Shown in pieces: positions 1 to 32,509 of a DNA stretch of 34,197 nt (positions are counted from its first letter, which is position 1; each line of letters starts with the position of its first letter). A program made the position numbers and the translations under genes. The stretch is taken from contig JAFUHF010000039.1 of the NCBI GenBank assembly GCA_017468985.1, forward strand, positions 1 to 34,197, read 5' to 3'. This DNA comes from Bacteroidaceae bacterium (GTDB taxonomy: Bacteria > Bacteroidota > Bacteroidia > Bacteroidales > Bacteroidaceae). The notes under the pieces were generated by a model that had not been told where the DNA came from, searched no databases, and saw nothing but the letters and a program-made list of their open reading frames with translations.

Positions 1-1506
1 GCAAAGGAATTGTTGGTGAGCAAGGGTGAAGTGAAAGGGATAAAAACCATCTGGAATGTTACATTCATAGCAAAGTGCGTGATAGTAACAGCAGGTAGTA
101 TTCTGAATGGCCTTATTCACATCGGTAGAAATAAGGTGGAAGGCGGCAGAATCTCTGAGCCAGCTGTTCATTGTTTTTCCGAATCCATTTCTGCTCAAGG
201 TGTTTTGGTACAGAGAATGAAAACAGGAACACCTGTGCGCATTGATGGTAGGACCGTACATTTAGATGAATTGCAAGAGCAACCAGGAGAAAATGATTTT
301 CATCGTTTTTCTTTCCGAACAAAGAAACGTTTGTTGCCTCAAATACATTGTTGGTTGTGTAACACCAATGAGGAGGTTCACGAAGTTCTTCGCAGTGGAT
401 TGGAAGACTCTCCTCTTTACAATGGCCAGATACAATCCATTGGTCCGAGATATTGTCCGAGCATAGAAACAAAGTTGCATACTTTCCCTGACCGAGATCA
501 GCATCCTTTGTTTCTTGAACCAGAAGGAACTGATACGCACGAAATGTATTTGAATGGGTTTTCTTCCAGTTTGCCATTTGATGTTCAGCTAAAGGCTATT
601 CGCAAAATGCCAGCATTCCGCGATGTGGAGATCTATCGCCCTGGATATGCCATTGAATACGATTTCTTTGATCCAACACAACTTCATGCCAGTTTAGAAT
701 CTAAGATTATTTCTGGTTTGTTCCTGGCAGGTCAAGTTAACGGAACCACAGGCTATGAAGAGGCCGCAGGACAAGGTATCTTTGCAGGTATAAATGCTGC
801 TAACAGGTGTTTTGGAACCGAACCTTTTATTATGAAACGAGATGAAGGATACATTGGAGTCTTGATTGACGATCTGGTGACAAAGGGAGTGGATGAACCT
901 TATCGAATGTTTACTTCTCGTGCTGAATACCGCATACTTCTTCGTCAGGACAATGCGGATATTCGTTTAACGCCATTTGCTATTCATTATGGATTAATAA
1001 ATGAAGATCATCAACGTCATTTCGAAGCAAAAAAGAAAAGTATTGATGAAATCGTTTCCTTTTGTAATACCTATGTGGTCAAACCCAAACAAATCAACGA
1101 TCACCTACTATCTGTGTCTTCTGCCCCATTGCGTGAAGCTGCAAGGTTAAGCGAGTTGATCTGTCGCCCAGAACTTTCAGTTGACCGTATGCGGATGATG
1201 ATACCTGCTTTTAATGAATTGTTCGAACATCTTTCCGTATGTAATGAAGAAATTATTGAAGCCGCAGAAATCGAGATTAAATACTCTGGATATATCGAAC
1301 GCGAAAAACTAATGGCTCAAAAAATGCGTCGGTTTGAAGATATTAAAATTCAAGGTCATTTTGATTATCACCAGATCACGCAATTGTCTACAGAGGCTCG
1401 ACAGAAGTTGTCTCGTCTCAATCCTGCTACGATTGCTCAAGCGCAACGAATACCAGGGGTTTCACCGAGCGATATTAATGTTTTATTGGTTTTACTGCAT
1501 CGATAG
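1..1506 (+). CDS. mnmG: tRNA uridine-34 carboxymethylaminomethyl modification enzyme MnmG (GidA), 5' truncated by window edge
   Basis: FAD-dependent subunit of the MnmEG complex, which installs the carboxymethylaminomethyl group on U34 of tRNAs reading split codon boxes; cytoplasmic. The frame is open from base 1, so the gene starts upstream; the TTG at 10 is only an internal codon. About 500 of the usual roughly 620 residues are present, and the N-terminal FAD-binding GxGxxG motif is outside the window. Visible family blocks are TAGSILNGLIHIG, GGRISEP, RMKTGTPVRIDGRT, the YCPSIETK and FPDRDQHPLFLEPEG stretch, and AGQVNGTTGYEEAAGQG, followed by the helical C-terminal domain that binds MnmE and tRNA. 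The stop codon TAG (1504-1506) is followed directly by a parS palindrome, and uvrC begins 35 bases downstream on the same strand. Nothing appears broken. Confidence 0.96.
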   Translation, partial: AKELLVSKGEVKGIKTIWNVTFIAKCVIVTAGSILNGLIHIGRNKVEGGRISEPAVHCFSESISAQGVLVQRMKTGTPVRIDGRTVHLDELQEQPGENDFHRFSFRTKKRLLPQIHCWLCNTNEEVHEVLRSGLEDSPLYNGQIQSIGPRYCPSIETKLHTFPDRDQHPLFLEPEGTDTHEMYLNGFSSSLPFDVQLKAIRKMPAFRDVEIYRPGYAIEYDFFDPTQLHASLESKIISGLFLAGQVNGTTGYEEAAGQGIFAGINAANRCFGTEPFIMKRDEGYIGVLIDDLVTKGVDEPYRMFTSRAEYRILLRQDNADIRLTPFAIHYGLINEDHQRHFEAKKKSIDEIVSFCNTYVVKPKQINDHLLSVSSAPLREAARLSELICRPELSVDRMRMMIPAFNELFEHLSVCNEEIIEAAEIEIKYSGYIEREKLMAQKMRRFEDIKIQGHFDYHQITQLSTEARQKLSRLNPATIAQAQRIPGVSPSDINVLLVLLHR

Positions 1507-1522
1507 TGTTTCACGTGAAACA
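1507..1522. other. parS: parS centromere-like site (ParB binding site)
   Basis: The 16 bases TGTTTCACGTGAAACA form a perfect palindrome and match the canonical chromosomal parS consensus TGTTNCACGTGNAACA at every position. The site starts at the base immediately after the mnmG stop codon and lies in the 35-base gap before uvrC. Known role of the family: ParB binds parS, loads as a CTP-dependent clamp, spreads, and recruits SMC and ParA for origin segregation. This implies that the window is probably in the origin-proximal part of the chromosome (inference). parA and parB are not in the window. Confidence 0.88.
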
Positions 1523-1541: not shown

Positions 1542-3398
1542 ATGTCGATTGAATCGAATAACAAAAAAAGATTAGATCGTTTAAAGCAGATTGTTTATAG
1601 TCTTCCTGAAAAACCGGGTAGTTATCAATATTATGATAAAGATAACACGATTATTTACGTTGGAAAGGCAAAAAACTTGAAGCATCGTGTTTCCTCTTAT
1701 TTTAACAAAAATCTACAAAGTCGTAAGACGGCTATGCTTGTGAGTAAGATAGAAAATATCACCTTTTCTGTCGTAAAAACCGAAGAAGATGCGTTACTGT
1801 TGGAGAATAACTTAATTAAAAAGTATCAACCCCGATACAATGTGTTGCTGAAGGATGATAAAACATATCCTTCTATATGTATCACGAAAGAAGATTATCC
1901 CCGAATCTATAAGACGAGGCAGATCGATCTGAAAAAAGGACAATACTTTGGGCCTTATTCCCACGTGGGAACAATGTATGCGCTATTAGAACTGATGAAA
2001 ACAATGTATTTCCCAAGGCCCTGTGCTATGCCAATGAAAAAGGATGCTGTTGATGAGGGGAAATATTCTATTTGTATGAATTATCAAATTCGTAAGTGTA
2101 AGGGTCCTTGTGTGGGGAAACAAAGTCAAGAGGAGTATTTGAGCAATATTGATGAATGCCGTGAGATACTAAAAGGAAATACGGATGACGTGAAGCGTAA
2201 GATAAAGGCACGCATGCAAGAATTGGCAATGGAAATGCGCTTTGAAGAAGCTCAGGAGCTCAAAGACCGTTATAGTTTATTAAGTACATTCCAGGCTAAG
2301 AGTGAGGTGGTGAGTCCTACGAATACTAATCTTGATGTGTTTAATATAGAAATGGATCAAGATGTTGCTTATATCAATTACTTACATATTGTTAAAGGCA
2401 GCGTAACGCAGTCTTTTACCATTGAGTTTAAGAAGCGTCTGGATGAAAGCTGTGAAGAACTTCTCACATTAGGTATAGTGGAATTAAGAAGTCGCTTTGG
2501 TTCTTCTTCGAAAGAAATAGTGATCCCCTTTGCTATTGACCTGCATTTAGAAAACGTTTCCATTACAATACCTCAGCGAGGTGATAAACTGAAGCTACTC
2601 AAACTTTCGGAGTTGAATGTCAAGGAATACAAGATAGAACAGCTCAAGCAGCAGGACAAACTCAATCCAGAGCAGAAGAGAGTCCGTTTGATGAAAGAGA
2701 TTCAGGAACATCTGCATTTACCCAAGCTCCCTTATACCATAGAATTGTTCGATAATTCCAATATTCAGGGAAGTGATGCTGTAGCGGCATGCGTGGTATT
2801 TCAGAAACTTAAACCTGCAAAGAGCGAATATAGAAAGTACAATATTAAAACAGTGGTAGGTCCCAATGATTATGCATCCATGCAGGAGGTAGTTCGTCGC
2901 AGGTATTCCCGACTGATTGAAGAACAAAGCCCCCTACCCGATCTTATTATTACCGATGGTGGAAAGGGGCAGATGGAATGTGTGCGTAAGGTAATAGAGG
3001 ATGAACTTCATATAGAGATTCCCATAGCAGGATTGGCTAAAGACAATAGACATAGAACCAATGAGTTGCTCTATGGTTTTCCGCCTGTGGTTGTCGGAAT
3101 GAAGCAAAGTAGTGAATTATTTAAGGTATTGACACAAATGCAAGATGAGGTACATCGTTTTGCCATCACGTTTCATAAGCAGAAACGTTCTAAAAGCCAG
3201 TTACATTCTGCACTTGATGATATAAATGGTGTTGGTGACGTAACCAAAAGCATGTTGATCAAACAGTTCAAGAGTTACAAGAGAATAAGAGAAGCATCGA
3301 GAGACGAGCTGATACATCTTTTTGGTAATAAGCGAGGAAGCCTTCTTTACGACAATCTTCATCCTTTTATTGAAATTAAAAAACAAGAAATAGAGTAA
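1542..3398 (+). CDS. uvrC: UvrABC excinuclease subunit C
   Basis: Nuclease subunit of nucleotide excision repair that cuts on both sides of a lesion after UvrA and UvrB have located it. It is 618 residues long, normal for the family. In order: GIY-YIG nuclease domain (about 22-100, PGSYQYY and YVGKAKNL), a four-cysteine cluster C161, C178, C186, C190 spaced like the iron-sulfur ligands described for UvrC, a UVR domain that contacts UvrB (about 213-248), an RNase H-like second nuclease with D404 (LFDNSN), D472 (IITDGGKGQ) and H538 (DEVHRF), and a helix-hairpin-helix end (from about 555). ATG at 1542 is the first good start after the parS site. dtd follows after 8 bases, suggesting an operon. 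Confidence 0.97.
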   Translation: MSIESNNKKRLDRLKQIVYSLPEKPGSYQYYDKDNTIIYVGKAKNLKHRVSSYFNKNLQSRKTAMLVSKIENITFSVVKTEEDALLLENNLIKKYQPRYNVLLKDDKTYPSICITKEDYPRIYKTRQIDLKKGQYFGPYSHVGTMYALLELMKTMYFPRPCAMPMKKDAVDEGKYSICMNYQIRKCKGPCVGKQSQEEYLSNIDECREILKGNTDDVKRKIKARMQELAMEMRFEEAQELKDRYSLLSTFQAKSEVVSPTNTNLDVFNIEMDQDVAYINYLHIVKGSVTQSFTIEFKKRLDESCEELLTLGIVELRSRFGSSSKEIVIPFAIDLHLENVSITIPQRGDKLKLLKLSELNVKEYKIEQLKQQDKLNPEQKRVRLMKEIQEHLHLPKLPYTIELFDNSNIQGSDAVAACVVFQKLKPAKSEYRKYNIKTVVGPNDYASMQEVVRRRYSRLIEEQSPLPDLIITDGGKGQMECVRKVIEDELHIEIPIAGLAKDNRHRTNELLYGFPPVVVGMKQSSELFKVLTQMQDEVHRFAITFHKQKRSKSQLHSALDDINGVGDVTKSMLIKQFKSYKRIREASRDELIHLFGNKRGSLLYDNLHPFIEIKKQEIE

Positions 3399-3406
3399 AT
3401 CACATT

Positions 3407-3859
3407 ATGCGAGCAGTTATTCAAAGAGTTACCCATGCATCTGTTACCATAGATGGGAAAGAAAAATCACGTATTTCCCAAGGTTTCCTGATCCTATTGG
3501 GCGTAGAGGCAGCAGATTCTCCAGACGATGTGGAGTGGCTGGTACGAAAGATAGCTGCACTTAGAGTTTTCAATGATAGTAATGGGGTTATGAATCTGTC
3601 CATTAAAGAGGTAGACGGAGAAGTTTTAGTGATTAGCCAGTTTACATTGATGGCGTCTTACAAAAAAGGCAATCGCCCTTCTTGGATTCGAGCAGCTTCC
3701 CATGCCATTGCCATACCTCTTTATGAATCATTCTGCCAACGTTTGTCGGATTTGTTGGGACACCCTGTTGCAACGGGAGTTTTCGGTGCTGACATGAAAG
3801 TGAAACTGCTTAATGATGGTCCTGTTACCATCTGTATGGATACCAAGAATAAAGAATAA
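3407..3859 (+). CDS. dtd: D-aminoacyl-tRNA deacylase
   Basis: Hydrolyses D-amino acids mischarged onto tRNA, a chirality checkpoint in the cytoplasm. The protein has 150 residues, the full family length. The start MRAVIQRV, the SQFTL motif near residue 77, the block KKGNRPSW and the C-terminal NDGPVTI loop with the Gly-Pro pair that reads chirality are all present. It lies 8 bases after uvrC and 12 bases before the MazG-like gene, so co-transcription is likely. Confidence 0.95.
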   Translation: MRAVIQRVTHASVTIDGKEKSRISQGFLILLGVEAADSPDDVEWLVRKIAALRVFNDSNGVMNLSIKEVDGEVLVISQFTLMASYKKGNRPSWIRAASHAIAIPLYESFCQRLSDLLGHPVATGVFGADMKVKLLNDGPVTICMDTKNKE

Positions 3860-3871
3860 TTCATAACGATA

Positions 3872-4210
3872 ATGCAAATGCAAGAACTCACTATTCATCA
3901 GGCGCAGCAACTTGTAGATCAATGGATAAAACAGTATGGAGTGCGTTATTTCAGTGAACTTACCAATATGGCCTGTCTCGCCGAGGAGGTAGGCGAATTG
4001 GCGCGTATCATGGCTCGACGTTATGGTGACCAGAGCTTTAAGGTGGGAGAAAATCATGATCCTTCTGAAGAAATGGCCGATGTATTGTGGGTGCTCATTT
4101 GCCTGGCCAATCAGACGGGCGTAGACCTTAATAAAGCATTACAACAATCAATTGACAAAAAGACGAAAAGAGATAGCAATAGACATATTAACAATCCAAA
4201 ATTACGATAA
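3872..4210 (+). CDS. MazG-like nucleotide pyrophosphohydrolase
   Basis: Small all-alpha NTP pyrophosphohydrolase of the MazG/dUTPase superfamily, 112 residues, a single domain. The magnesium-binding signature is visible as AEEVGELAR near residues 33-41 and EEMADVLW near 69-76, the paired ExxE and ExxD helices of the family. Members convert (d)NTPs to monophosphates; the substrate here cannot be told from sequence, though housecleaning of abnormal nucleotides fits the neighbouring repair and proofreading genes. An ATG two codons in is an alternative start. The stop codon is separated from the deoC ATG by one base, so translational coupling is probable. Confidence 0.88.
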   Translation: MQMQELTIHQAQQLVDQWIKQYGVRYFSELTNMACLAEEVGELARIMARRYGDQSFKVGENHDPSEEMADVLWVLICLANQTGVDLNKALQQSIDKKTKRDSNRHINNPKLR

Positions 4211-4211
4211 A

Positions 4212-5159
4212 ATGGAAGAAAATCATCATCATCACGAAGACCATTGTACCCATCATGATCATCATGGGCATCATCTTTCAAAATATGAACAAATGTTTGA
4301 GCAGTATGATCTCCATCTTCATGATGAGGAGGTTCAAGCCCAAGCTCGTATCATCGTTTCCAACGGACAGAAAGAACATGATCAGCAAGATGTGCGAAAG
4401 TTTTTATTTTCCACATTAGAACTTACATCACTCAAAGTGACTGACAGTGAGGATACAATCCTTCAGCTTACTGAAAAGGTAAATCGTTTCTCTGATTCAA
4501 ATCCAGATTTCCCTCACCTTGCGGCAATCTGTGTTTATCCGCGATTTGTTTCCGTGGTAAGCAATGCCCTTGAGGCTGATGGTGTTGAACTGAGTACCGT
4601 ATGTGGAGGCTTCCCTTCTTCACAGACTTTTCCTGAGCTCAAAACCATTGAGACTGCACTGGCTTTAAAAGACGGTGCCACAGAAATAGATACAGTGATG
4701 CCAGTGGGGTACTTTCTTGCAGGAGATTATGAGCAAGTGTTTGATGAAGTCAGCGAAATTAAGGCTACATGCGGTGAAGAAATAACCCTGAAGGTGATTC
4801 TTGAAGCTGGTGCGCTTCAGTCTGCGGTCAATATTAAAAAGGCTGCCCTTATGGCCATGTATAGTGGAGCTGATTTTATTAAAACCTCAACAGGGAAGAT
4901 TGAACCAGGAGCTCGTCCAGATGCTGTATTGACTATGTGTCAGACCATTAAAGAGTATTACGAAAAGACCGGTCGCAAGATTGGCATCAAGATTGCTGGT
5001 GGTGTGAAGACCACAGAACAAGCCCTCTCCTATTATTCTATTGTCCATGAGATTCTTGGAGAGGAATGGCTGACCCCTAAATGGTTTCGGATTGGTGCCA
5101 GTGATCTGGCAAATGCATTACTTTCGGATATTACTGGAGAAAAGGTCAATGTATTATAG
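4212..5159 (+). CDS. deoC: Deoxyribose-phosphate aldolase with histidine-rich N-terminus
   Basis: Class I aldolase that cleaves 2-deoxyribose 5-phosphate to acetaldehyde and glyceraldehyde 3-phosphate in deoxynucleoside catabolism. The TIM-barrel active site is intact: the Schiff-base lysine is K224 in DFIKTSTGK, the second lysine is K260 in IKIAGGVKT, and the catalytic aspartate is D160 in TEIDTV. The chosen start is the ATG at 4212, one base past the stop of the preceding gene; an in-frame ATG at 4152 would lie inside that gene and is less likely. The first 21 residues contain eleven histidines and one cysteine, followed by a roughly 70-residue region before the barrel core. The length of 315 exceeds the roughly 250 residues of the E. 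coli enzyme. The function of the histidine stretch is unknown; metal binding is a guess. Confidence 0.95.
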   Translation: MEENHHHHEDHCTHHDHHGHHLSKYEQMFEQYDLHLHDEEVQAQARIIVSNGQKEHDQQDVRKFLFSTLELTSLKVTDSEDTILQLTEKVNRFSDSNPDFPHLAAICVYPRFVSVVSNALEADGVELSTVCGGFPSSQTFPELKTIETALALKDGATEIDTVMPVGYFLAGDYEQVFDEVSEIKATCGEEITLKVILEAGALQSAVNIKKAALMAMYSGADFIKTSTGKIEPGARPDAVLTMCQTIKEYYEKTGRKIGIKIAGGVKTTEQALSYYSIVHEILGEEWLTPKWFRIGASDLANALLSDITGEKVNVL

Positions 5160-5434
5160 ACCATCCCAATCTGTATAGTCAAATTAGCACGTGTAAATCC
5201 GCCTCCACTATACCAGTGTTGCCTGATTGGAACGTGGAAATCTGCTTATACAATATTTGTAAATCTTAAAAGTAACGGAGTATTCGAACTGGCTATATCT
5301 TGTTTCATAACAAAATCATATGTTTATAAATGAAGATGTTACTCTGAGAGTAATGTTAACACCAGCGAGGCCTTAGGCTATCTGATCCTATAACCTTTAT
5401 GATGACAGTAGATCAATAAAGAAATGTTAGAGAA
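5160..5434. other. Convergent intergenic region without a recognised gene
   Basis: 275 AT-rich bases between the ends of deoC (plus) and the polyprenyl synthase (minus). I see no credible open frame. A perfect inverted repeat TTACTC-TGA-GAGTAA lies at 5339-5353 but has no following T-run, so I do not call it a terminator. Confidence 0.5.
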
Positions 5435-6409
5435 TCAGTGCTTTCGGTATGATACGTAATGAACGTATTCTTCTAATGAATTGCGAATTGCGGAATTGCG
5501 GAATGATGTGATAAGTTCGAGGGCTTTTCCAACGTATTCATTCATTCGTTTTTCTGCGTATTCGATGCCGCCGTTTTGTTTTGCATATGTGATGAGGTGG
5601 TTTATTTCCTCTTTCGATGCTTCTCCTTTTCGTATTCGGTGTGCCATGTTGATGATCTCGGTATCAGTTGTTTGGCGAAGCACGTGTAGCACTGGTAATG
5701 TGAGTTTTCCTTCCAGCATGTCGTTTCCCGTGGGTTTTCCGATGTTGGCATCTGAGAAATAGTCAAAGATATCGTCGCGAATTTGAAAACTCATGCCTAT
5801 GGCATCTCCGAACAGACGCATCTTTTCTATGTCTTCTTCTTCTGCAGCAACAGAAATAGCGCCTATCTCGGCTGATTCTGCAAATAGTGCTGCCGTTTTT
5901 TGCCGAATTATGGCGTAGTAGTCTTCTTCTGAAAATTCCTGTTGGTAGCTGTTGGATAGTTGCATCAGTTCTCCAGCCGAAAGTTGTTTACCCAAGATTG
6001 AAATGTGTTTAATAATGCGAAGGTTTTGGGTTTGCGCTACTTTTTCAAGCGATGATGAAAGCAAGTAGTCTCCTACCAAAACAGCTATTTTATTTCCATA
6101 ACCGGCATTGACCGATGGCTGACCTCTGCGTTCATTGCTTTCATCAACTACATCATCGTGGACAAGGCTTGCCGTGTGGAGCAATTCTACCATTACGGCT
6201 GAAAGATAGGTAACATCGTTGGGTTGACCATATTCCTTGGCTACAAGTAGTAACAATGTGGGGCGCATCAGTTTTCCTATACGTTGTTTGATATGTCGCA
6301 ATACGGTATCAAGCAACTCGTTGGGATGATGGAGCGTTTCGTCAAATATTTTGTCGAAACATGCCAAATCCTCAATAATGGGAGCTTTTATGCACTGTAG
6401 TTTATCCAC
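5435..6409 (-). CDS. All-trans polyprenyl diphosphate synthase
   Basis: Class I isoprenoid synthase that condenses isopentenyl diphosphate onto an allylic diphosphate, probably making the long side chain of menaquinone (octaprenyl/solanesyl type; exact chain length not readable). Both aspartate-rich motifs are present: DDVVD (about residues 85-89) and DDIFD (about 212-216), with GKLMRPTL and the GQ/KTAALF blocks of the family. The frame can be extended to a TTG at 6430, but I choose the GTG at 6409, giving MDKLQCIKAPI, because this resembles family N-termini and because a promoter-like TATTTTTG lies at 6434-6427, overlapping the TTG. The product is 324 residues. It is divergent from polA with a short shared spacer. 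Confidence 0.9.
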   Translation of the reverse strand: MDKLQCIKAPIIEDLACFDKIFDETLHHPNELLDTVLRHIKQRIGKLMRPTLLLLVAKEYGQPNDVTYLSAVMVELLHTASLVHDDVVDESNERRGQPSVNAGYGNKIAVLVGDYLLSSSLEKVAQTQNLRIIKHISILGKQLSAGELMQLSNSYQQEFSEEDYYAIIRQKTAALFAESAEIGAISVAAEEEDIEKMRLFGDAIGMSFQIRDDIFDYFSDANIGKPTGNDMLEGKLTLPVLHVLRQTTDTEIINMAHRIRKGEASKEEINHLITYAKQNGGIEYAEKRMNEYVGKALELITSFRNSAIRNSLEEYVHYVSYRKH

Positions 6410-6426
6410 TATTTGAAAATTACGGC

Positions 6427-6434
6427 GCAAAAAT
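6427..6434 (-). promoter_or_regulatory. Candidate Bacteroidetes -7 element for the polyprenyl synthase gene
   Basis: On the minus strand the octamer TATTTTTG matches the Bacteroidetes -7 consensus TAnnTTTG and ends 17 bases upstream of the chosen GTG start. No clear TTTG -33 element is found at 19-21 bases upstream, so the call is tentative. Confidence 0.35.
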
Positions 6435-6497
6435 ACGAATTAATCATCCAACACGTCGTTTATTTTCCTTATTTTTACATCAAAAATTGGAAAAGTG

Positions 6498-9260
6498 ATG
6501 CAAAAACTATTTTTACTTGACGCGTATGCTCTTATTTATAGGGCTTATTACGCTTTGATAGCTGCTCCACGGATTAATTCCAAAGGCTTCAATACCTCGG
6601 CTATTTTTGGTTTTGTAAATACCTTAGAAGAACTGCTTCATAAGGAACGGCCTACGCACATTGGTGTTGCATTCGATCCTTCCGGGCCCACCTTCCGACA
6701 TGAGGCCTATGCCCCCTATAAGGCACAACGAGAATCCACTCCCGAAGATATCAAGAAGTCTGTTCCCATTATTAAGGATATTATTCGTGCTTACCACATT
6801 CCCATATTGGAAGTTTCCGGCTTTGAGGCTGACGATGTGATTGGGACCTTGGCTACTCAGGCTGAACATCAAGGAGTACAAACTGTTATGGTGACACCGG
6901 ACAAGGATTATGGTCAGTTGGTCAGTTCTTCTATTTTGCAGCTTCGGCCAGGTAGGGGTGGTTATACCCTTTTGGGACCAGATGATATAAAAGAAAAATA
7001 CGGCATTACAGAAACTGGCCAAGTCATCGATATTTTAGGACTTATGGGCGATGCTGTTGACAATGTTCCCGGTTGCCCAGGCGTAGGCGAGAAAACTGCC
7101 ATAACGCTTGTCAAGAACTTCGGAACCATCGAAGGTATTTATGATAGGATAGATGAGGTAAAAGGAAAACTGCGAGAAAAATTATCTGACAATAAAGAAC
7201 ATGTGCTTTTCTCAAAATATCTGGTTACCATCAAGCGTGATGTTCCCATAGAACTTGACTTAGAAAAATTAAAAGTGAATGAGATTGACAAGTCTGCTCT
7301 TCGATCCATTTTTGAGGAATTGGAATTTCGTAGTTTAATCAACAAAATTTGCGGAGATGTTAAAAAAACGGAAGCACCAAAGGTGGTTCAGGGCGATTTG
7401 TTTGGTTTAAATCCGTCCGAATCATCGAATGATGTGATTTGCGCGAATTTTGAACCGGTTGATTTGGCGAGGTCTGACTATGAAATGATTGATAATGAAA
7501 TGAAACGGAAGGATTTTTGTGAAAAAATCTTGACAGAGCAAAAGGTGGCGATTAGCATTGCAACCACTACCATGGTGGGTATAGATGCCGAAATCATAGG
7601 TTTAGCTTTTGCGCTGAGCTCGGGCCAGGCATTTTATGTTCCATGTGAAGGTTACGATCTTAGCCCACGGTTGGTATTAGAAGTTTTTCGGAAAGTGTTC
7701 GAATCAGAAAAGGTGTTGAAGATAGGCCACGATCTGAAATGGATGCAGCTTGCCTTATCCCACTACAACATAGAGCTTCGAGGCGAGTTGTTTGATACCA
7801 TGATTGCACATTATGTGATACAACCTGAATTGCGACATCACTTGAGTTATATTTCAGAAATCTATCTTCATCATACCGGTCTCTCTCTTGAGGGCTACTT
7901 CGGTGTACGATGGATGGAAGAACGTAACATGCGTCTTCTTCCAGAGGAGATGAAGGTTCGTTTCCAGTGTGAGCAGGCCGACATGGCTTTACGGCTCCAT
8001 CCGCGCTTAGTAAGCGAATTAGAGCATTACAATGCCTTGACACTCTTCCGCCAGATTGAGATGCCATTAATGAATGTGCTGGCCGGTATGGAGAGAAGCG
8101 GAGTTTTGATTGACCAACCCACTTTGCGCGAAACATCACGTCTGTTTACCAAACGAATGAACGACTACGAACAGGAGGTCTATCAGCTCAGCGGCCAGCA
8201 GTTTAATCTTTCTTCGCCCAAACAGGTGGGGGACGTCTTGTTCGGACAAATGCATCTCATAGAAAAGCCAAAGAAAACCAAAAGTGGGCAATATGTTACC
8301 TCAGAGGCTGTGTTGGAGGAACTCCGCACGCAGGCCCCAGTGGTGGACTATCTGTTGAAATATCGTGGAATGAAGAAACTGCTCAGTACTTATGTTGACG
8401 CTTTGCCACAGCTGGTCAATCCTCGTACGGGCCACATCCACACAACCTTCAACCAAGCCGTAACAGCGACGGGGCGGCTTAGCTCCAGTAATCCCAATTT
8501 GCAGAACATTCCAGTTAGAGGTGATGATGGCAAGGAAATACGCAAAGCATTCATACCCGAACCTTGTAGCCTGTTCTTCTCGGCCGACTATTCCCAGATA
8601 GAATTGCGCATTATGGCCCATCTTTCGGGTGATCCTCACATGATAGATGCTTTCCGCAAGGGTTATGACATTCATGCAGCAACGGCAGCTAAAGTTTATC
8701 ACAAAAGTATAGAAAACATTACGGGCGATGAACGCCGAAAGGCCAAAACGGCCAATTTTGGCATCATTTATGGCATTACCGTGTTCGGATTGGCCCAGCG
8801 TATAGGCATTTCACGCACAGAGGCCAAGGAACTTATTGACAACTATTTTGCCATGTTCCCCGGCGTACAGCAATTCATGCAGCAAAGCATAGAAACGGCT
8901 CGCAATAAGGGTTACATCGAAACCCTCTTCCATCGTCGTCGTTATCTTCCTGACATCAATTCAGGTAACTCTGTGGTGCGTGGCTATGCTGAACGCAACG
9001 CCATCAATGCACCCATTCAAGGCTCTGCGGCTGATATTATAAAGGTGGCCATGGTGCGCATTGCCAAAAGATTCAAGGAAGAACAGTTGCGCTCCAAGAT
9101 GATTCTGCAGGTTCACGACGAACTGAACTTCAGCGTTGTGCCAGAGGAAAGGGAACAAGTGGAGCAACTCGTAAAATACGAAATGGAACACGCATGCCAA
9201 TTGAGTGTACCCCTTCTTGCTGATTGTGGATGGGGAAACAACTGGCTTGAAGCGCATTGA
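6498..9260 (+). CDS. polA: DNA polymerase I, with an apparently inactive 3'-5' exonuclease domain
   Basis: Replicates short gaps and removes primers in repair and Okazaki maturation. I use ATG 6498; a GTG lies one codon upstream. 920 residues. The 5'-nuclease domain (about 1-300) keeps its acidic residues (GFEADDVIG, TPDKDYGQL, GLMGDAVDNVPG). The polymerase domain (about 520-920) keeps motif A SADYSQIELR (D697), motif B RRKAKTANFGIIYG, and motif C VHDE (D874). In the middle exonuclease domain the fold is recognisable (IIGLAFAL, KIGHDLKW, ADMALRLH), but E. coli D355/E357 align with S353/A355, D424 with M416, Y497 with F489 and D501 with Q493. Proofreading should therefore be absent, as in Taq polymerase. 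Four glycosidase genes follow 27 bases downstream on the same strand. Confidence 0.97.
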   Translation: MQKLFLLDAYALIYRAYYALIAAPRINSKGFNTSAIFGFVNTLEELLHKERPTHIGVAFDPSGPTFRHEAYAPYKAQRESTPEDIKKSVPIIKDIIRAYHIPILEVSGFEADDVIGTLATQAEHQGVQTVMVTPDKDYGQLVSSSILQLRPGRGGYTLLGPDDIKEKYGITETGQVIDILGLMGDAVDNVPGCPGVGEKTAITLVKNFGTIEGIYDRIDEVKGKLREKLSDNKEHVLFSKYLVTIKRDVPIELDLEKLKVNEIDKSALRSIFEELEFRSLINKICGDVKKTEAPKVVQGDLFGLNPSESSNDVICANFEPVDLARSDYEMIDNEMKRKDFCEKILTEQKVAISIATTTMVGIDAEIIGLAFALSSGQAFYVPCEGYDLSPRLVLEVFRKVFESEKVLKIGHDLKWMQLALSHYNIELRGELFDTMIAHYVIQPELRHHLSYISEIYLHHTGLSLEGYFGVRWMEERNMRLLPEEMKVRFQCEQADMALRLHPRLVSELEHYNALTLFRQIEMPLMNVLAGMERSGVLIDQPTLRETSRLFTKRMNDYEQEVYQLSGQQFNLSSPKQVGDVLFGQMHLIEKPKKTKSGQYVTSEAVLEELRTQAPVVDYLLKYRGMKKLLSTYVDALPQLVNPRTGHIHTTFNQAVTATGRLSSSNPNLQNIPVRGDDGKEIRKAFIPEPCSLFFSADYSQIELRIMAHLSGDPHMIDAFRKGYDIHAATAAKVYHKSIENITGDERRKAKTANFGIIYGITVFGLAQRIGISRTEAKELIDNYFAMFPGVQQFMQQSIETARNKGYIETLFHRRRYLPDINSGNSVVRGYAERNAINAPIQGSAADIIKVAMVRIAKRFKEEQLRSKMILQVHDELNFSVVPEEREQVEQLVKYEMEHACQLSVPLLADCGWGNNWLEAH

Positions 9261-9287: not shown

Positions 9288-11321
9288 ATGAAAAAGACAT
9301 TCATCTTCATTCTTTTGTTACTCTCCCCCACTCTGCTTCTTGCTCAGAGTGTGGACAAGATGAACGCGCGACCCATTCAGGTGGAAAAATGGATAGACAA
9401 TCATTTTGGTAAAGGAAAAAGGCCACCATTTTCCTTTGTTTATGATGGGAAGCCATCCTCCAGTTTCATTACTCGTTGGAACCATTCCATCCAGAAGCAA
9501 AAAGCTGCAGATGAGGGACAAGTTTCGTATCTTGTAAGTTATGCTGACCCTCAGACGGGGCTTCGCGTGGATTGCACGGTAAACGGCTATGCCGACTACG
9601 GTGCCATTGACTGGGTGCTTCGATTCACCAATACGGGAACCTCCAATACACCCCAGATTTCGCAAGTGCGCACAGCTGATCTCAGTTTGCAATATGCCCA
9701 GAAGGGGTCATTCTTGCTTCATTATGCCAGCGGAAGCACGGCTGCGCGTTCCGACTTTGCTCCACGCTTGAAGGAATTCTTCTCTGGTGACAGTCTCAAG
9801 ATGCGTCCTGCCGGAGGCCGTTCATCCGATACGGCTTTTCCTTTCTTTAATATAGAATCGCCAGCTTCTCAGGGTGTGCTTGTGGCCATTGGATGGTCGG
9901 GAACATGGAATAGCGTCATTCGCCAAACCAACGAACAAACCGTAAGCCTAACGGCTGCTTTAGACCATTTTAACTCCTATCTTACCGCTGGTGAAAGCAT
10001 TCGTGGGCTAAGTGTATGCCTATTGTTCTGGCAGGGAGACGATCGTATGGTAGGACACAATAAATTCCGTCGTTTCATGCTAAATCACCATTCGCGGAAA
10101 ATCAACGGTCAGCCCGTTTACTATCCCATCTTTGGTGGTCTCAATTGGGGCGATCCTTCGCCTTGCAACGAATATACCTGCATGACTACTGAGTATGCCA
10201 TCGCCCTCATTCAGCGTATGAAGTTATTCAAACTCAATCCCGAAGCCTATTGGCTCGATGCCGGTTGGTATAAGGGTGCAGCAGAGTACTATGATGGTAA
10301 GAACTGGTATAATACGGCTGGAAACTGGCTCGTTGACTCTACCCGTTTTTCTACAGGTTTGAAACCTATTTCGGACTATACCCACAAGGCTCAGAATGCA
10401 GACTTCATGGTGTGGTTCGAACCAGAGCGTGTATATAAGGACACCTATTGGGCCCAACTCCATCCTGAATGGATGCTTCGTGCCGATGGTGATAACTATC
10501 TTTTCAATCTGGCCGATCCTGAAGCTTGCTGCTGGATGTCGAAAACCATTGGTGATCTCATGGAGCAAAACGGCATAGACATCTACCGTCAGGACTTCAA
10601 TATCGCTCCCGAAGCCATCTGGAAGGCGCAGGACAAGCCCGGCAGGCAAGGCATTACTGAGGTGAAATACATTGAAGGTCTTTATCAGTTTTGGGACTAT
10701 TTGCTTCAGCGTTTCCCCCACTCTCTCATTGACAATTGTGCCAGCGGCGGCCGTCGCATCGACTATGAAACAATGCTCCGCAGTGCCCCAATGTGGCGTA
10801 CGGACTATCGTTACGGTGAACCCATTGGTTATCAATGTCATACCTACGGGCTGGAGTTCTACCTGCCTCAACATGCTACGGGTTCTTACAAGGTAGATCG
10901 CTTCGATGCCCGTTCCTCAATGGGAAGCGCCGTGGTTTTCAATTATAAGCTTACGCAGCAGGGACAGTCCTACTTAGAGATGCAGAAATGCTACGAAGAA
11001 TTTCGCGAAGTACGTCCTTATTATTATGAGGATTTCTATCCATTAAGCGGTGTCGGTGATCTCACGAAAGACGACATTTGGTTGGCCTACCAGCTTCATC
11101 GTCCTGCTGATCAGTCGGGTTATATCGTTGCATTCCGCCGTCAGGACTGCCCACAGCGAGACTACGTGGTGCGCCTTTCTGGTCTTGACCCCGAGCATGT
11201 ATATACATTGAAGAATAAAGACAGTGGTGCCGAAATACGCAAGACCGGTCGTCAGCTGTCCGAAGGCTTCACTCTTACGCTTGACAATCCTCGCACCAGT
11301 CTGCTCATCAAGTATCAGTAA
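9288..11321 (+). CDS. Exported GH36-type alpha-galactosidase
   Basis: Retaining alpha-galactosidase (clan GH-D), 677 residues, with a clear signal peptide (MKK, hydrophobic stretch, cleavage after LLLAQ near residue 20). An N-terminal beta-sandwich (about 25-270) precedes the TIM barrel. Catalytic features: YWLDAGWY near 321-328, nucleophile D436 in YRQDFN, the CASGGRRID block near 484-492, and acid/base D506 in MWRTD. The family removes terminal alpha-linked galactose, or in some subgroups alpha-GalNAc, from oligosaccharides, polysaccharides or glycoconjugates; the substrate cannot be fixed from sequence. It starts 27 bases after polA with no promoter or terminator that I can recognise between them, and leads a four-gene glycosidase run. 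Confidence 0.9.
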   Translation: MKKTFIFILLLLSPTLLLAQSVDKMNARPIQVEKWIDNHFGKGKRPPFSFVYDGKPSSSFITRWNHSIQKQKAADEGQVSYLVSYADPQTGLRVDCTVNGYADYGAIDWVLRFTNTGTSNTPQISQVRTADLSLQYAQKGSFLLHYASGSTAARSDFAPRLKEFFSGDSLKMRPAGGRSSDTAFPFFNIESPASQGVLVAIGWSGTWNSVIRQTNEQTVSLTAALDHFNSYLTAGESIRGLSVCLLFWQGDDRMVGHNKFRRFMLNHHSRKINGQPVYYPIFGGLNWGDPSPCNEYTCMTTEYAIALIQRMKLFKLNPEAYWLDAGWYKGAAEYYDGKNWYNTAGNWLVDSTRFSTGLKPISDYTHKAQNADFMVWFEPERVYKDTYWAQLHPEWMLRADGDNYLFNLADPEACCWMSKTIGDLMEQNGIDIYRQDFNIAPEAIWKAQDKPGRQGITEVKYIEGLYQFWDYLLQRFPHSLIDNCASGGRRIDYETMLRSAPMWRTDYRYGEPIGYQCHTYGLEFYLPQHATGSYKVDRFDARSSMGSAVVFNYKLTQQGQSYLEMQKCYEEFREVRPYYYEDFYPLSGVGDLTKDDIWLAYQLHRPADQSGYIVAFRRQDCPQRDYVVRLSGLDPEHVYTLKNKDSGAEIRKTGRQLSEGFTLTLDNPRTSLLIKYQ

Positions 11322-11344
11322 CTTTTCAATAATGTCGTTATACA

Positions 11345-13510
11345 ATGATGAAACATAGCTCATTTGTGCTCTTTATACTGTTCGCGGTAGGCTTTCTGTC
11401 GGGCTTTGGGCAGGTGTTGCCATATCAGAATCCGGAACTTTCTCATGAAGAGCGCGCACGCGACTTGTGTTCACGGCTGACTCTGGATGAGAAGGTGAAG
11501 TTGATGGAACACAGCTCGCCGGCAGTGGAGAAGTTGGGTGTGCCCTATTTCAATTGGTGGAGTGAGGCTTTGCATGGAGTGGGACGCAATGGATTGGCTA
11601 CCGTTTTCCCGATTACTATGGGCTTGGCGGCCACTTGGAACGATGAGTTTGTCGAGCAGTGTTTCAACGCCATAAGCTTGGAAGCTCGTGCTAAAAACAA
11701 CATTGCGCGTCGTCAAAATCAGCAGACTTCTCAAAACAAGTGCCTATCTTTCTGGACTCCAAATATCAACATCTTTCGCGATCCTCGCTGGGGCCGCGGC
11801 CAAGAAACCTATGGTGAGGATCCATATCTCACTACGCGTATGGGTTTGGCTGTTGTAAATGGCTTGCAAGGAACGGAAGATGCAAAGTATCAAAAGTTGC
11901 TGGCTTGTGCGAAGCATTTTGCCGTCCACAGTGGGCCGGAATGGAACCGTCACAGTTTCAATGTAGAGGGTCTGCCACTAAGGGATCTTTGGGAGACCTA
12001 TCTGCCAGCCTTTGAAGCTTTGGTAAAGAGGGGACACGTTGCTGAAGTGATGTGTGCTTATCAGCGCTTTGATGGAAAGCCGTGCTGTGGCAGTGATCGA
12101 TTGCTGCAGCAGATACTGCGTGTGGATTGGGGTTTTGATGGGCTGGTGACAAGCGACTGCTGGGCAATTGATGATTTTTGGGTAAAAGGACGCCATGGTT
12201 ATACTGATAGTCGCGAGAAAGCTATTTCTGAGGCTGTGCTCACAGGAACTGACTTGGAATGCGGTAATACGTATCACTATCTGGCAGACGCTGTAAAACA
12301 GGGACTCATTACGGAAGAACAAATTGACGTGAGTCTCATTCGCCTGCTCCGTGCGCGTTTTGCCTTGGGCGACTTTGACGATGAAAACTTAGTGCCATGG
12401 AAGCGAATAGGTTCAGAGGTGTTAGATTCAGATGAGCATCGTGCCTTAGCACTTCAAGCAGGATTGCAAAGCATTGTACTGCTACAAAACAATGGTGGCA
12501 TCTTGCCGCTTAGTAAGGACATGAAGATATTGGTGATGGGCCAGAATGCTCAGGATGAGGAGATGCAGTGGGGTAACTATAACGGTGTACCTTGGCATAC
12601 GGTAACGATTCTGGAAGGCATACGTTCACGTGCAGCTCATACTACTTTTTTAGACAGCATTCCTCTTGTTTTGGCTGAAGGTGAAAGCCTAAAAGTATCG
12701 GATCAGGAGATTCTGGACGCTGCAAAGAACGTGGACATTGTGGTCTTCGCTGGTGGCATCTCGCCGCGACTTGAAGGAGAGCAGATGAAGGTAACGTATG
12801 AAGGCTTCAAGGGTGGTGACCGCACGGATATTGAATTACCTGCTGTTCAACGTAGGGTGTTGAAATTGCTGGCAGGAGCTGGCAAACGCATTGTGTACGT
12901 GAACTGTTCCGGCAGTGCTATTGCCCTGAAGCCTGAAACGCAGTCGTGCCAAGCCATCGTACAGGCATGGTATGGCGGGCAGGCTGGCGGCGAGGCCTTG
13001 GCTCAGGTGTTGTTTGGAGAATATAATCCCAGCGGAAAGTTGCCCGTTACGTTCTATGCTGACAATTCGCAGCTTCCCGACTACGAGGACTACAATATGG
13101 CTGGACGTACATATCGCTATTTTCGTGGCGAACCGCTTTGGGCCTTCGGCTATGGTTTGTCGTATACGGATTTCCAGATTGACAAAGTGACGTACAAAAA
13201 CCATAAGGTGCGTGCACGTGTCATCAACCGTGGCACGATGGATGGTGACGAGGTTGTGCAGGTTTACCTTAGGCGTGATGATGACACCAATGGACCGCGT
13301 ATGACACTGCGTGGCTTCCGTCGTGTAAGTGTAAAGGCTGGTCATTCCGTTATGGTGGAGATTCCTCTCTCCGACGAAAGTTTCAGCTGGTGGGATGAGA
13401 CTACGAATACCATACATCCACGTGCAGGAGAATATCAGCTCATGGTGGGCAGCAGTAGCCGTGCACAAGATCTCACAGTGCTTAATATCAGCTATCAGCT
13501 CCAATCCTAA
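11345..13510 (+). CDS. Exported GH3 beta-glucosidase/beta-xylosidase
   Basis: Family 3 retaining glycosidase, 721 residues, with an N-terminal signal peptide (hydrophobic residues 6-21). Visible blocks: NWWSEALHG (about 70-78), NIFRDPRWGRGQETYGEDPYL (about 142-162), AKHFAVHSG, and the nucleophile region VTSDCWAIDDF with D271. The second alpha/beta domain (about 375-560) contains LLQNNGGILPL and QAWYGGQAGGEALA, and a fibronectin-III-like domain closes the protein (about 610-721, GEPLWAFGYGLSYT then the beta strands). The SDC context and the NWWSEALHG block are more like xylosidase-type members than classical beta-glucosidases, but specificity is uncertain. It begins 23 bases after the GH36 stop and ends 22 bases before the GH2 start. 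Confidence 0.9.
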   Translation: MMKHSSFVLFILFAVGFLSGFGQVLPYQNPELSHEERARDLCSRLTLDEKVKLMEHSSPAVEKLGVPYFNWWSEALHGVGRNGLATVFPITMGLAATWNDEFVEQCFNAISLEARAKNNIARRQNQQTSQNKCLSFWTPNINIFRDPRWGRGQETYGEDPYLTTRMGLAVVNGLQGTEDAKYQKLLACAKHFAVHSGPEWNRHSFNVEGLPLRDLWETYLPAFEALVKRGHVAEVMCAYQRFDGKPCCGSDRLLQQILRVDWGFDGLVTSDCWAIDDFWVKGRHGYTDSREKAISEAVLTGTDLECGNTYHYLADAVKQGLITEEQIDVSLIRLLRARFALGDFDDENLVPWKRIGSEVLDSDEHRALALQAGLQSIVLLQNNGGILPLSKDMKILVMGQNAQDEEMQWGNYNGVPWHTVTILEGIRSRAAHTTFLDSIPLVLAEGESLKVSDQEILDAAKNVDIVVFAGGISPRLEGEQMKVTYEGFKGGDRTDIELPAVQRRVLKLLAGAGKRIVYVNCSGSAIALKPETQSCQAIVQAWYGGQAGGEALAQVLFGEYNPSGKLPVTFYADNSQLPDYEDYNMAGRTYRYFRGEPLWAFGYGLSYTDFQIDKVTYKNHKVRARVINRGTMDGDEVVQVYLRRDDDTNGPRMTLRGFRRVSVKAGHSVMVEIPLSDESFSWWDETTNTIHPRAGEYQLMVGSSSRAQDLTVLNISYQLQS

Positions 13511-13532
13511 TCAAGACAAAAACAATATATTT

Positions 13533-16262
13533 ATGAAAAAGTGTTTCATTTCTCTTTGTGCCCTTGGCTTAATGTTTCTGGGCGCATGTATAGGAGGCAG
13601 TGGGTCCTCCGAGTCTATTCCACTGCCGGAACATCCGCGTCCCGACTTCGAGCGCACGGCGTGGCAGAATCTTAATGGCTATTGGTCGTTCACGTTCGAC
13701 GAGGCTAAGGGCACAAAAGCCCTTGTTGAAAACAGTCTGGCAGAATTCGACGAGCGAATCCTCGTTCCATACCCTTGGGGTTCCAAGCTTTCGGAGGTAG
13801 AGAACAAGGGCGACACGGCGTGGTACGGACGCGAGGTTGTAGTGCCAAAGACGTGGAAGGGTAAGCGCGTCTTCCTTGTTGTCGGAGCTTCCGACTGGGA
13901 CACGCAGGTTTGGTTCGACGGAAAGGACGTTGGCCGTCATCAGGGTGGCTACACACCGTTCGAATGCGAACTCACCGATGTTAAGTTTGGCGAAGGTCAG
14001 AAACTGATCATCAGAGCCGACGACAGAGATAGTAAGGCCCATCTGTACGGCAAGCAGGGCTATGGCAATGTGAGGGGCATATGGCAGACCGTATATCTTG
14101 AGGCTCGCGGTGAGAATTTCATCCGTTCGTTGCACTTCACGCCAGATATCGACGCTTCGACAGTGAAAGTAGACGTTGTTCTCGTTGCTCCAGCTGCCGA
14201 CGGCGAGAAGTTCACGCTCAAGTTCAAGACCGGTGGACAGAACACGTTTACGGAAGACATCAGTGGCAAGGATCAGGCCAGTTTTACGGTGCCCATCAAA
14301 GGTCAGCATCTCTGGGATATTGACGATCCTTTCCTCTATGAAGTTACGGCATCGCTTGGAAAGCAAGATGAGGTGAACAGCTACTTCGGACAGCGCAAGA
14401 TTAGCGTAATGCCGTTCCCTGGAGCCGACTATAACTATGTTGCCCTGAACAATAAACCCATCTATTTGCAACTCTGTCTCGACCAAAGCTATCATCCCGA
14501 AGGCTTTTATACTTTCCCGAGCGACGAATTTATGAAGAACGAAATCCTGTTGTCGAAGCGTTTCGGACTCAATGGAAACCGCATACACATCAAGGTAGAA
14601 GTGCCGCGCAAGCTCTATTGGGCCGACAAACTGGGGCTGCTCATCATGGCCGATACCCCCAACTTCTGGGGAGAACCTATTCCCGAAGCTCGTAAGGATT
14701 GGGAGCACTGTCTGCGTGGACAAGTAGAGCGCGACTACAACCATCCCAGCATCTTCACATGGGTGAACTTCAATGAAACTTGGGGACTCCGCACCAATGG
14801 CGTTTATGAAGAGGAGACGCAGGAGTGGGTGCGCCAAATGTACCATCTTACGAAGGATCTTGACCCTTCTCGTCTTGTTGAAGACCAGTCAGCTTGCAAC
14901 CGTGACCATGTAGAGTCCGACATCAACTCATGGCATGCTTATCGTCCAGGATACGTATGGGAATCCGAAATAAAACTCTATGTCGACAGCACCTACCCGG
15001 GTGGTCATTTCAATTATATTGGAAAGAATGCCCAGGCCGACGCTCCAATGATTAACAGTGAATGTGGAAACGTTTGGGGATATGAAGGCAGTGCCGGCGA
15101 CTGCGACTTCACGTGGGACTACCACATCATGATCGATGCCTTCCGCCGTTATCCGAAATGTGCAGGATGGCTCTACACGGAGCATCACGACGTGATCAAC
15201 GAATGGAATGGCTACGTGAAGTACGACCGCTCGCCGAAGATTGACGGACTGGACGACCTTGTGCCGGGCATGACGATTGCCGACTTCCAGAGCCTTTACT
15301 ACATCAGCTCCGAGCGCTATCTGTACACCGAGGTGAAGGGTGGCGAGGCTGTTGAGGTGCCCTTCTATGCATCGTTTATGACGGATAAGGATCCGGGTGC
15401 TCTCACCATCGAGACGGAACTGGTAGGCTGGAATGAACTGGGTGAGTTCAATACTTACCAAAGTGGTACGGTGGCCGTAGATTTCGTTCCTTATAAGAGT
15501 GCTCCGGCTGGCAGCACAATTGTGGATATTCCTAATGAAAAGGGACTTTATCTGCTCCGTTTTGTTCTGAAAGCTGGCGACGAGGTGCTGCACCACAATT
15601 TCCGCACATTCCGCGTTAAGGAAGGCGGTGATGCTACTGTGGATGGTGGCCGTTTACTCACGTTTGCTCCGGCCTCGTTCGCAGCTCAGGAGTGGTCTGT
15701 GAAACAGACTTCCATCTACGACGGACTGAAGGTGGACGGCTTCGGTCACGGCTACTTCGAATACAGCGTAGCTCTTCCAAAGGATGTTGACGTTAAGAAC
15801 CTAACGTCTGTTGAACTCCTGTTCGAAGCATCGTCCAAGCAGCCATTCGGCAAGGACCTTGACCAGAGCGAGATTCAGGATAACTTCATGCTGGGTGGCG
15901 GAACGTTCGACCACTGTAAGTCGGCGAATGCCTATGCCATGACTGACGAGGAGCTGTGGCCCTCGAAGGTTGAGGTGACCGTTAACGGAGAGTCTATAGG
16001 CGAATATGCTTTGGCCGACGACCCAGCCGACCATCGTGGCATCTTGTCGTGGGGCTCGCAGCCATTGAACCGTCGTATGTCCGAGGGAGGTTCCTATGGC
16101 GAACTCATAAAGATGGAAATCCCCGTGGAAGTGCTCACGAAGAGCGTGGTTCCGGTAATTCGCTTCACCGTGCCTGAAGATACGAATGGCGGTCTTGCCA
16201 TCTACGGTAAGGACTTCGGTCGCTATCCGCTCGATCCGACATTGATATTGAAAACAAAATAA
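13533..16262 (+). CDS. GH2-family beta-glycosidase lipoprotein (beta-galactosidase-like)
   Basis: Retaining beta-glycosidase of 909 residues. The ATG at 13533 is chosen because it gives a lipoprotein signal with lipobox LGAC (C19); the frame extends upstream into the GH3 gene without such a signal. After the lipid cysteine: sugar-binding jelly-roll (about 35-200, AWQNLNGYWSFTFD, VFLVVGASDWDTQVWFDG), immunoglobulin-like domain (about 205-310), TIM barrel with acid/base E415 in NFNET and nucleophile E510 in NSECG, then about 340 residues of C-terminal beta-rich sequence I cannot assign. It may act on beta-galactosides or related sugars. Residues after the cysteine (IGGSGSS) lack an acidic export signal, so a periplasm-facing position is possible. 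The GH20 gene starts 11 bases downstream. Confidence 0.88.
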   Translation: MKKCFISLCALGLMFLGACIGGSGSSESIPLPEHPRPDFERTAWQNLNGYWSFTFDEAKGTKALVENSLAEFDERILVPYPWGSKLSEVENKGDTAWYGREVVVPKTWKGKRVFLVVGASDWDTQVWFDGKDVGRHQGGYTPFECELTDVKFGEGQKLIIRADDRDSKAHLYGKQGYGNVRGIWQTVYLEARGENFIRSLHFTPDIDASTVKVDVVLVAPAADGEKFTLKFKTGGQNTFTEDISGKDQASFTVPIKGQHLWDIDDPFLYEVTASLGKQDEVNSYFGQRKISVMPFPGADYNYVALNNKPIYLQLCLDQSYHPEGFYTFPSDEFMKNEILLSKRFGLNGNRIHIKVEVPRKLYWADKLGLLIMADTPNFWGEPIPEARKDWEHCLRGQVERDYNHPSIFTWVNFNETWGLRTNGVYEEETQEWVRQMYHLTKDLDPSRLVEDQSACNRDHVESDINSWHAYRPGYVWESEIKLYVDSTYPGGHFNYIGKNAQADAPMINSECGNVWGYEGSAGDCDFTWDYHIMIDAFRRYPKCAGWLYTEHHDVINEWNGYVKYDRSPKIDGLDDLVPGMTIADFQSLYYISSERYLYTEVKGGEAVEVPFYASFMTDKDPGALTIETELVGWNELGEFNTYQSGTVAVDFVPYKSAPAGSTIVDIPNEKGLYLLRFVLKAGDEVLHHNFRTFRVKEGGDATVDGGRLLTFAPASFAAQEWSVKQTSIYDGLKVDGFGHGYFEYSVALPKDVDVKNLTSVELLFEASSKQPFGKDLDQSEIQDNFMLGGGTFDHCKSANAYAMTDEELWPSKVEVTVNGESIGEYALADDPADHRGILSWGSQPLNRRMSEGGSYGELIKMEIPVEVLTKSVVPVIRFTVPEDTNGGLAIYGKDFGRYPLDPTLILKTK

Positions 16263-16273
16263 CACACATTTTT

Positions 16274-23356: not shown

Positions 23357-23381
23357 CACGACAATTAATGATTTATTCGTG

Positions 23382-24137: not shown

Positions 24138-24154
24138 ATCAAATCTTTTTCTAC

Positions 24155-25627: not shown

Positions 25628-25640
25628 AACCGTCCGTCGG

Positions 25641-28263: not shown

Positions 28264-28301
28264 CACCTCGATTGTACCATGCAGTCAGCCAGAGTAGAGT
28301 A

Positions 28302-30313: not shown

Positions 30314-30478
30314 AGAAGGAGCGAAATCATAGAAAACCTTTTCGGCGACGAAATGCAGGTTACAGACTCTGAAACCGAAATAGAGTTCAATTTTGCATAG
30401 CTCAAGGTGAAGCACAAAGTAAAGCGGAAGAAGGAATAAGCTGATATAGGTAAACCGTAAAGCAGAAAATAGATAAAA
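30314..30478. other. Intergenic spacer between DUF3868 gene and first fimbrillin-like gene
   Basis: 165 AT-rich bases without a gene. CAATTTTG at 30388-30395 is one base short of a -7 element and has no -33 partner, so no promoter is called. Confidence 0.5.
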
Positions 30479-32479: not shown

Positions 32480-32509
32480 AATTAATAATTAACATTCAAT
32501 ACAAAAACG

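Follow-up and report, generated by a model that had tools for sequence, protein, structure and literature searches.

In the ParABS system, a CTP-bound ParB dimer reads a palindrome by its helix-turn-helix, closes into a clamp and slides to the adjoining DNA. ParA carries the ParB cluster, and newly copied origin regions are the first to part. The chromosomal parS consensus of this system is TGTTNCACGTGNAACA, as in Bacillus subtilis, Caulobacter and Pseudomonas. In other phyla, gidA (mnmG) is found in an origin neighbourhood of the form gidA-gidB-parAB. For the phylum Bacteroidota, parS clusters of the same consensus were described by Hi-C in the OMM12 members Bacteroides caecimuris and Muribaculum intestinale (PMC10197239); origin calls made there from parS and skew were backed by read coverage, and no homologue of known bacterial condensins was reported for the two species. 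Unlike the present analysis, the accessible part of that study names no gene at parS and gives no distance to parAB.

The window analysed here, the whole stretch of 34,197 nucleotides from the draft genome of a Bacteroidaceae bacterium, carries between mnmG and uvrC a 16-base palindrome which, with a probability of about 93%, we take to be a chromosomal parS, the predicted loading site of a ParB encoded elsewhere in the genome. It resembles the chromosomal parS of ParABS in sequence, in palindromy, in its two free positions and in the small number of copies per genome, as well as in its place near the origin in the relatives sampled and in the domains of the ParB; unlike it, the Bacteroidota sites are tied to mnmG, with parB far off (by more than 10% of the chromosome in 24 of 25 cases). 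Likewise, the gidA-gidB-parAB neighbourhood is matched in that mnmG lies near the origin and parS, whereas here mnmG and parS stand without parAB, and uvrC rather than gidB comes after mnmG. No account of an mnmG-linked parS in Bacteroidota was found in the literature, an earlier mention in Livny et al. 2007 being possible; the accessible parts of PMC2768785, PMC13342612 and PMC5771137 do not treat it. As a site, the window parS is ordinary, and the conserved arrangement with mnmG appears to be the new part: so far as the searched literature goes, a phylum-wide tie of parS to mnmG without parAB would be new.

A parS match behind mnmG and its conservation

Positions 1507-1522 of the window read TGTTTCACGTGAAACA, a perfect palindrome with 0 mismatches to the parS consensus, as the sequence-only reading had stated for all 16 bases. 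The first base directly follows the TAG stop (1504-1506) of mnmG (1-1506, plus strand; Pfam GIDA, 1.4e-91), the gene that parS accompanies across the phylum and whose 5' part is lost here as the contig starts inside it. The gap to uvrC (1542-3398, plus strand; Pfam UvrC_RNaseH_dom, 5.9e-55) is 35 bases, the uvrC ATG at 1542 standing 19 bases past the end of the site. Within the window, the search with up to 3 mismatches gave just two other matches, each with 3, which is the chance level. From the base composition of the window, 0.00014 perfect matches are expected per window and 0.009 per genome. The assembly (2,171,813 bases in 87 contigs, a draft 78.65% complete) was searched as a whole, as had been proposed, and its 2.17 Mb hold a single perfect parS, the window site, which bears out the earlier view that the match is unlikely to be due to chance. 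When up to 2 mismatches were allowed, 9 sites were obtained (1 perfect, 1 with one mismatch and 7 with two) against 12 for a reversed control pattern; because the two-mismatch sites are at the level of this control, it takes a match with 0 or 1 mismatch to stand out on the scale of the genome. Perfect matches to the reversed pattern were found in 0 of 61 genomes of the order sample and in 2 of 148 of the phylum sample.

The order sample comprised the genome of the window, 18 others of its genus, 18 of the family and 24 of the order. Perfect sites were present in 38 of these 61 genomes, 46 sites altogether, and 45 of them lie within 1 kb of an mnmG match, 43 at the 3' side and 2 at the 5' side; the remaining one is on a contig without mnmG. 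An MnmG match was obtained in 55 genomes, including all 38 with a perfect site, and in 53 of the 55 a site with at most 2 mismatches adjoins mnmG. Thus 15 of the 17 genomes that have MnmG and no perfect site carry a site with 1-2 mismatches at mnmG. No site with at most 2 mismatches was found at mnmG in G037, where the contig stops about 300 bases past the mnmG 3' end, or in G053, where it stops within mnmG. The 6 genomes without an MnmG match are also without a perfect site and are uninformative; two of the order, G028 and G054, have neither at a completeness of 100 and 99, which may reflect a loss, a gap in the assembly or a missed match.

In the genus, all 17 sites with at most one mismatch adjoin mnmG (18 genomes, 15 with a site). 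When 16 sequences from the 19 genus genomes were aligned on the site (G001, G008 and G015 gave no locus), the parS columns were 0.88-1.0 identical apart from positions 5, 7 and 12. Positions 5 (0.69) and 12 (0.5) are both free in parS, and the value at position 7 (0.69) is owing to a group of variants. Over the 20 bases to the right of parS, identity is 0.31-0.69. Conservation of the 16 bases against diverged flanks is a selection footprint on the site, as read from this alignment. The variants belong to five genus members without a perfect site, which carry, just after mnmG, TGTTCCTCGTGGAACA in four cases (G002, G004, G005 and G017; loci L064, L069, L072 and L068) and TGTTCCTTGTGGAACA in G014 (L075); no further site within one mismatch was found in these five genomes. 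Six columns in the compared stretch of ParB separate the five from the other 12 sequences. A change of ParB specificity in the five was not adopted and is kept as a lead; the group may be one clade. Four other loci (L066 of G011, L073 of G013, L070 of G016 and L071 of G006) have a half-parS heptamer, GTTTCAC, exactly 8 bases past parS; binding of ParB to half-sites has been described in the accessible text of PMC7022226. In a Rikenellaceae metagenome-assembled genome (L056, 11518-11653), three sites come after mnmG, each off at one central base, TGTTCCACGGGGAACA twice and TGTTCCACGAGGAACA once, a deviation which possibly reflects a shifted ParB specificity.

The sole one-mismatch site of the assembly lies on another contig (C69, locus L041, 1100-1115), upstream of mnmG, between the mnmG start and a divergent sdhC-like gene. 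This contig shares 515 bases of mnmG with the window at 96.9% identity, and judging by this overlap it is probably the stretch adjoining the window, split from it by strain variation. In that case, mnmG of this genome is flanked by a perfect parS on the 3' side and a near-parS on the 5' side. Read in the sense of mnmG, the upstream copy is TGTTTCACGGGAAACA both here and in G018, and similar forms in the opposite orientation occur in G003 and G010 (with loci L060, L061 and L062). We take TGTTTCACGGGAAACA to be a form intermediate between parS and the Bacillus Noc site, although the genome yielded just one ParB_N protein.

The phylum sample consisted of 148 genomes, that of the window and 147 drawn evenly. 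A perfect site was found in 111 of them and MnmG in 147. Among the matches listed (74 sites in 43 genomes besides that of the window), 71, from 40 genomes, are no more than 2 kb away from mnmG. Sites were on the 5' side only in 16 of these 40 listed genomes, on the 3' side only in 7 and on both sides in 16; one has a site on the 5' side plus one just within the edge of the match. As the MnmG match lacks the first ~120 residues, the 5' distances are too large by about 360 bases. The listed exceptions are G125 and G086, with the perfect site on another contig, and G133, with the perfect site 25.5 kb from mnmG; at mnmG itself G086 has four sites with 1-2 mismatches and G133 has one with 2 mismatches, while in G125 no site with up to 3 mismatches was found near mnmG. 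Of the 29 phylum mnmG loci that were read, 28 hold one or more sites with at most 2 mismatches, and in G098 none was found near mnmG at up to 3 mismatches. Outside the class, these readings showed sites at mnmG in four of 24 families, and one genome was read from each of the other 20. Of these 20, 18 carry a site with at most 2 mismatches no further than about 1.2 kb from mnmG; it is perfect in 13, has one mismatch in 3 and two in 2, against 1 match for the reversed control in all 20 loci. In G074 and G170 (L344 and L356), no site with at most 2 mismatches was found out to about 1.5 kb from mnmG, yet they have 2 and 3 perfect sites, respectively, somewhere in the genome, so that in their families the centromere may have been relocated. 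As a background level, 1.18 Mb of other sequence from three Bacteroidales chromosomes contains 5 sites with at most 2 mismatches, 0 of them perfect.

Two further loci can be recorded here. In G082 (L139, 751-3069), seven parS-like sites flank mnmG, 3 perfect and 4 with 1-2 mismatches, and six of the seven stand in a row upstream of the gene. In a Chitinivibrionales metagenome-assembled genome (L058), a perfect parS at 405-420 is near the inferred mnmG start and a two-mismatch site at 2270-2285 comes just after mnmG, a hint that the link of mnmG to parS may extend past Bacteroidota.

ParA, ParB and the replication origin

The one ParB_N protein of the genome is encoded on contig C15, with a ParA-type ATPase (AAA_31) directly upstream. 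Both genes are open frames with the expected domains. The ParB carries ParB_N, HTH_ParB and ParB_C, the C-terminal dimerisation domain, together with a GERRWRA motif. It matches solved ParB/Spo0J chains (1vz0, 6t1f and 6sdk) at about 3e-49 and Noc chains nearly as well, at about 5e-47; because the Noc match is almost equal, naming it ParB rests on the neighbouring ParA. Hence the consensus match, a ParB with a helix-turn-helix and CTP-binding motif, an adjoining ParA and conservation are all found, as for a chromosomal parS, whereas the nearness of parS to parAB that belongs to the canonical ParABS is not, the parAB pair being on another contig. With conservation at mnmG, this intact pair and the skew in four relatives described below, the earlier proposal of a functional parS is well supported. 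At the window site, a ParB dimer with CTP would recognise parS through its helix-turn-helix and then clamp; the clamp would slide from parS over mnmG, uvrC and beyond, and ParA would carry the ParB cluster, the copied origin regions separating first. It is by analogy with the described systems that we infer ParB occupancy of the site, spreading and a role in segregation.

Distances between parB and mnmG were obtained for 25 single-contig chromosomes: 22 of 26 genomes, G069, G086, G125 and G133 being dropped for extra contigs, plus G023, G027 and Segatella baroniae. The smallest amounts to 7.7% of the chromosome and the largest to 49.8%, with a median of 23%, and in bases the range is 0.30-2.26 Mb; none is within 5%, one is within 10% and 24 exceed 10%. 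A KS test did not set the distances apart from random placement (p 0.27, with genome sizes rounded for 22). For 19 of the 25 chromosomes the sites at mnmG were recorded, and these are perfect in 15 and have 1-2 mismatches in 4. The sequence-only reading had named a position far from the skew minimum and from parAB as grounds for refuting it. The site is literally far from parAB, yet its reading as parS stands, because such a distance is normal in the phylum.

GC skew was sampled at 20 places each, more densely near parS, in G023, G027 and S. baroniae. Near parS, the cumulative G-C curve reaches its local minimum at a distance of 2.2 kb from the site in G027, 3.4 kb in G023 and, on chromosome 1 of S. 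baroniae, 15 kb. The figure for G023 is the local minimum within a stretch chosen around parS, and its coarse profile is shallow (minimum -0.021 at 2.47 Mb vs -0.007 at 1.81 Mb), the second low being nearly as deep as that next to parS; this genome gives weak support for an origin at parS. In G179, under thin sampling (20 x 4 kb), the skew minimum falls within a 204-kb interval that holds mnmG and parS. The genus contigs agree less: within the limits of the contig, the minimum falls 13 kb away from parS in G010 and 64 kb away in G009, no skew switch coincides with parS in the G013 fragment, and the 17-kb contig of G018 is too short for skew. On the sdh side of C69, in window orientation, the skew is weakly positive (+0.03), where a negative value is expected left of the origin. 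The window contig itself begins inside mnmG in a fragmented draft, and its skew cannot place the origin. The earlier claim that the window is probably origin-proximal is favoured by the four single-contig relatives, in which parS is at or near the skew minimum (weakly so in G023), and less by the genus contigs. It is the origin region that parS marks; the exact switch point need not coincide with the site. The window parS is genuine and probably origin-proximal.

DnaA lies at position 609 in G023, 441 in G027 and 1,741,016 in S. baroniae, which on the circle is about 0.66, 0.39 and 0.34 Mb from parS, respectively; no DnaA match was obtained in the 78.65%-complete draft of the window. E. coli-type DnaA boxes formed no cluster near mnmG in the 12 loci scanned, two of which are the same region, and oriC was not located this way. 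The box TTATNCACA has 0-1 copies in 11 of the 12 loci and 3 in that of S. baroniae; elsewhere its frequency is 1.1 per 20 kb. Such clusters were dropped as a marker of oriC.

Taken over the Bacteroidota, it is fairly probable that mnmG is the fixed address of centromere and origin, that parAB (and dnaA where checked) have moved, and that mnmG with parS can serve as an origin marker. parS would then flank mnmG on one or both sides, and ParB would act unlinked to its own gene. A reasonable history, inferred by analogy, is that mnmG, parS and the origin were kept together while parAB moved off; this history rests on the gidA-gidB-parAB neighbourhood of other phyla described above. The rule is not universal, because the reduced endosymbiont Blattabacterium Bge, also of the Bacteroidota, is without dnaA, gidA and parA and has its skew origin in dapB, according to the accessible text of PMC2768785. 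Where it holds, it would offer a simple and testable way of locating the origin and centromere in Bacteroidota, metagenome assemblies included, where dnaA can mislead. It also suggests that parAB need not be linked to parS even over very long spans of evolution, a point that matters for whether the linkage seen in other phyla is functional or historical, and the natural parS variants are on offer for studies of ParB specificity.

Other readings of the palindrome

A self-complementary sequence that stands directly after a stop codon, is followed by TTTT and folds into a predicted hairpin of 8 pairs might instead be an intrinsic terminator or RNA hairpin ending the mnmG transcript. The sites of the five variant genus members and of L056, in which the centre varies and the outer arms are kept, could be read in the same way. 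A scan for terminators found none, and the hairpin does not stand out in folding energy (z -0.73; 44 of 200 shuffled sequences do as well). Among 55 distinct perfect sites read in the sense of mnmG, the letters at positions 5 and 12 do not pair in 15 (C..A in 13, T..T in 1 and A..G in 1). Moreover, among the matches listed, at least one site is on the 5' side of mnmG in 33 of 40 genomes. Judged by a G+C-rich stem with a T-run and by conserved pairing, the site does not qualify as an intrinsic terminator. With no scan match, ordinary energy and non-pairing letters, a hairpin or terminator is disfavoured and seems very improbable.

Slightly less probable still is an operator for a transcription factor that recognises a CACGTG core and controls mnmG or uvrC. 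The intergenic gap does adjoin both genes; the site, however, is kept whatever gene comes next and on either side of mnmG, in G082 six sites stand in a row upstream, and the letters are those of parS, the two free positions included. An operator of a regulon is disfavoured in that sites with at most one mismatch are confined to the vicinity of mnmG in the genus (17 of 17), as are 45 of the 46 perfect sites in the order. Equally improbable is a true parS that has gone out of use in this lineage. Degenerate versions in some genus members and the single mismatch of the upstream copy on C69 would suit such a relic, whereas the window copy is perfect while the neighbouring bases have freely diverged, and the ParA and ParB genes are open frames with the expected domains.

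Gene order around the site

After uvrC, the window continues with the block dtd-mazG-deoC-(polyprenyl synthase)-polA (3407-9260, assigned by Pfam), in which the polyprenyl synthase gene, idsA, is on the minus strand. The order mnmG-uvrC-dtd-mazG-deoC-idsA-polA is found, in the same orientation, in G027, G023, Prevotella falsenii, Prevotella SUG711 and Segatella baroniae, and idsA-polA is inverted in the genus members G009 and G013. Several relatives outside the genus have about 600 extra bases between mnmG and uvrC, which in G023 and G027 hold apt; in G027 a perfect parS is on either side of it. That apt is absent from this gap in the window was correctly noted before. Its best match in this genome is on contig C30, slightly under the family cut-off, and each of the 7 genus genomes tested has mnmG and its best apt match on separate contigs. 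By these positions, apt would have left the gap and parS stayed with mnmG.

The distance of about 22 kb between parS and dapB with two signal-peptidase genes (23379-26339, plus strand; Pfam and synteny) had been taken as a sign of rearrangement. It is ordinary, since in relatives the distance from mnmG to dapB-lepB is 14 kb (G013) or 16 kb (G027) on one side of the gene and 26 kb on the opposite side (G009). Nor does a placement of dapB-lepB near parAB, as in Flavobacteriia, apply to this genome, in which the genes after parAB encode DUF5683, SLT/LysM and RelA/SpoT proteins. The REARRANGEMENT idea of the sequence-only reading, a rearranged local order, thus finds little support: apt is gone and the wider neighbourhood varies, but apart from the loss of apt from the gap the order mnmG-polA is conserved and shows no trace of rearrangement. 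As compared among these genomes, the mnmG block is far more stable than its fluid wider neighbourhood.

Between polA and a heavy-metal P-type ATPase, four glycoside hydrolase genes (Melibiase/GH36-like, GH3, GH2 and GH20) follow one another at 9288-17881. At the far end of the window, 28272-34195, are genes for a DUF3575 protein, a weakly OmpA/TPR-like protein and two large proteins without a Pfam match, a group which we take to resemble the fimbria gene clusters of Bacteroidales.
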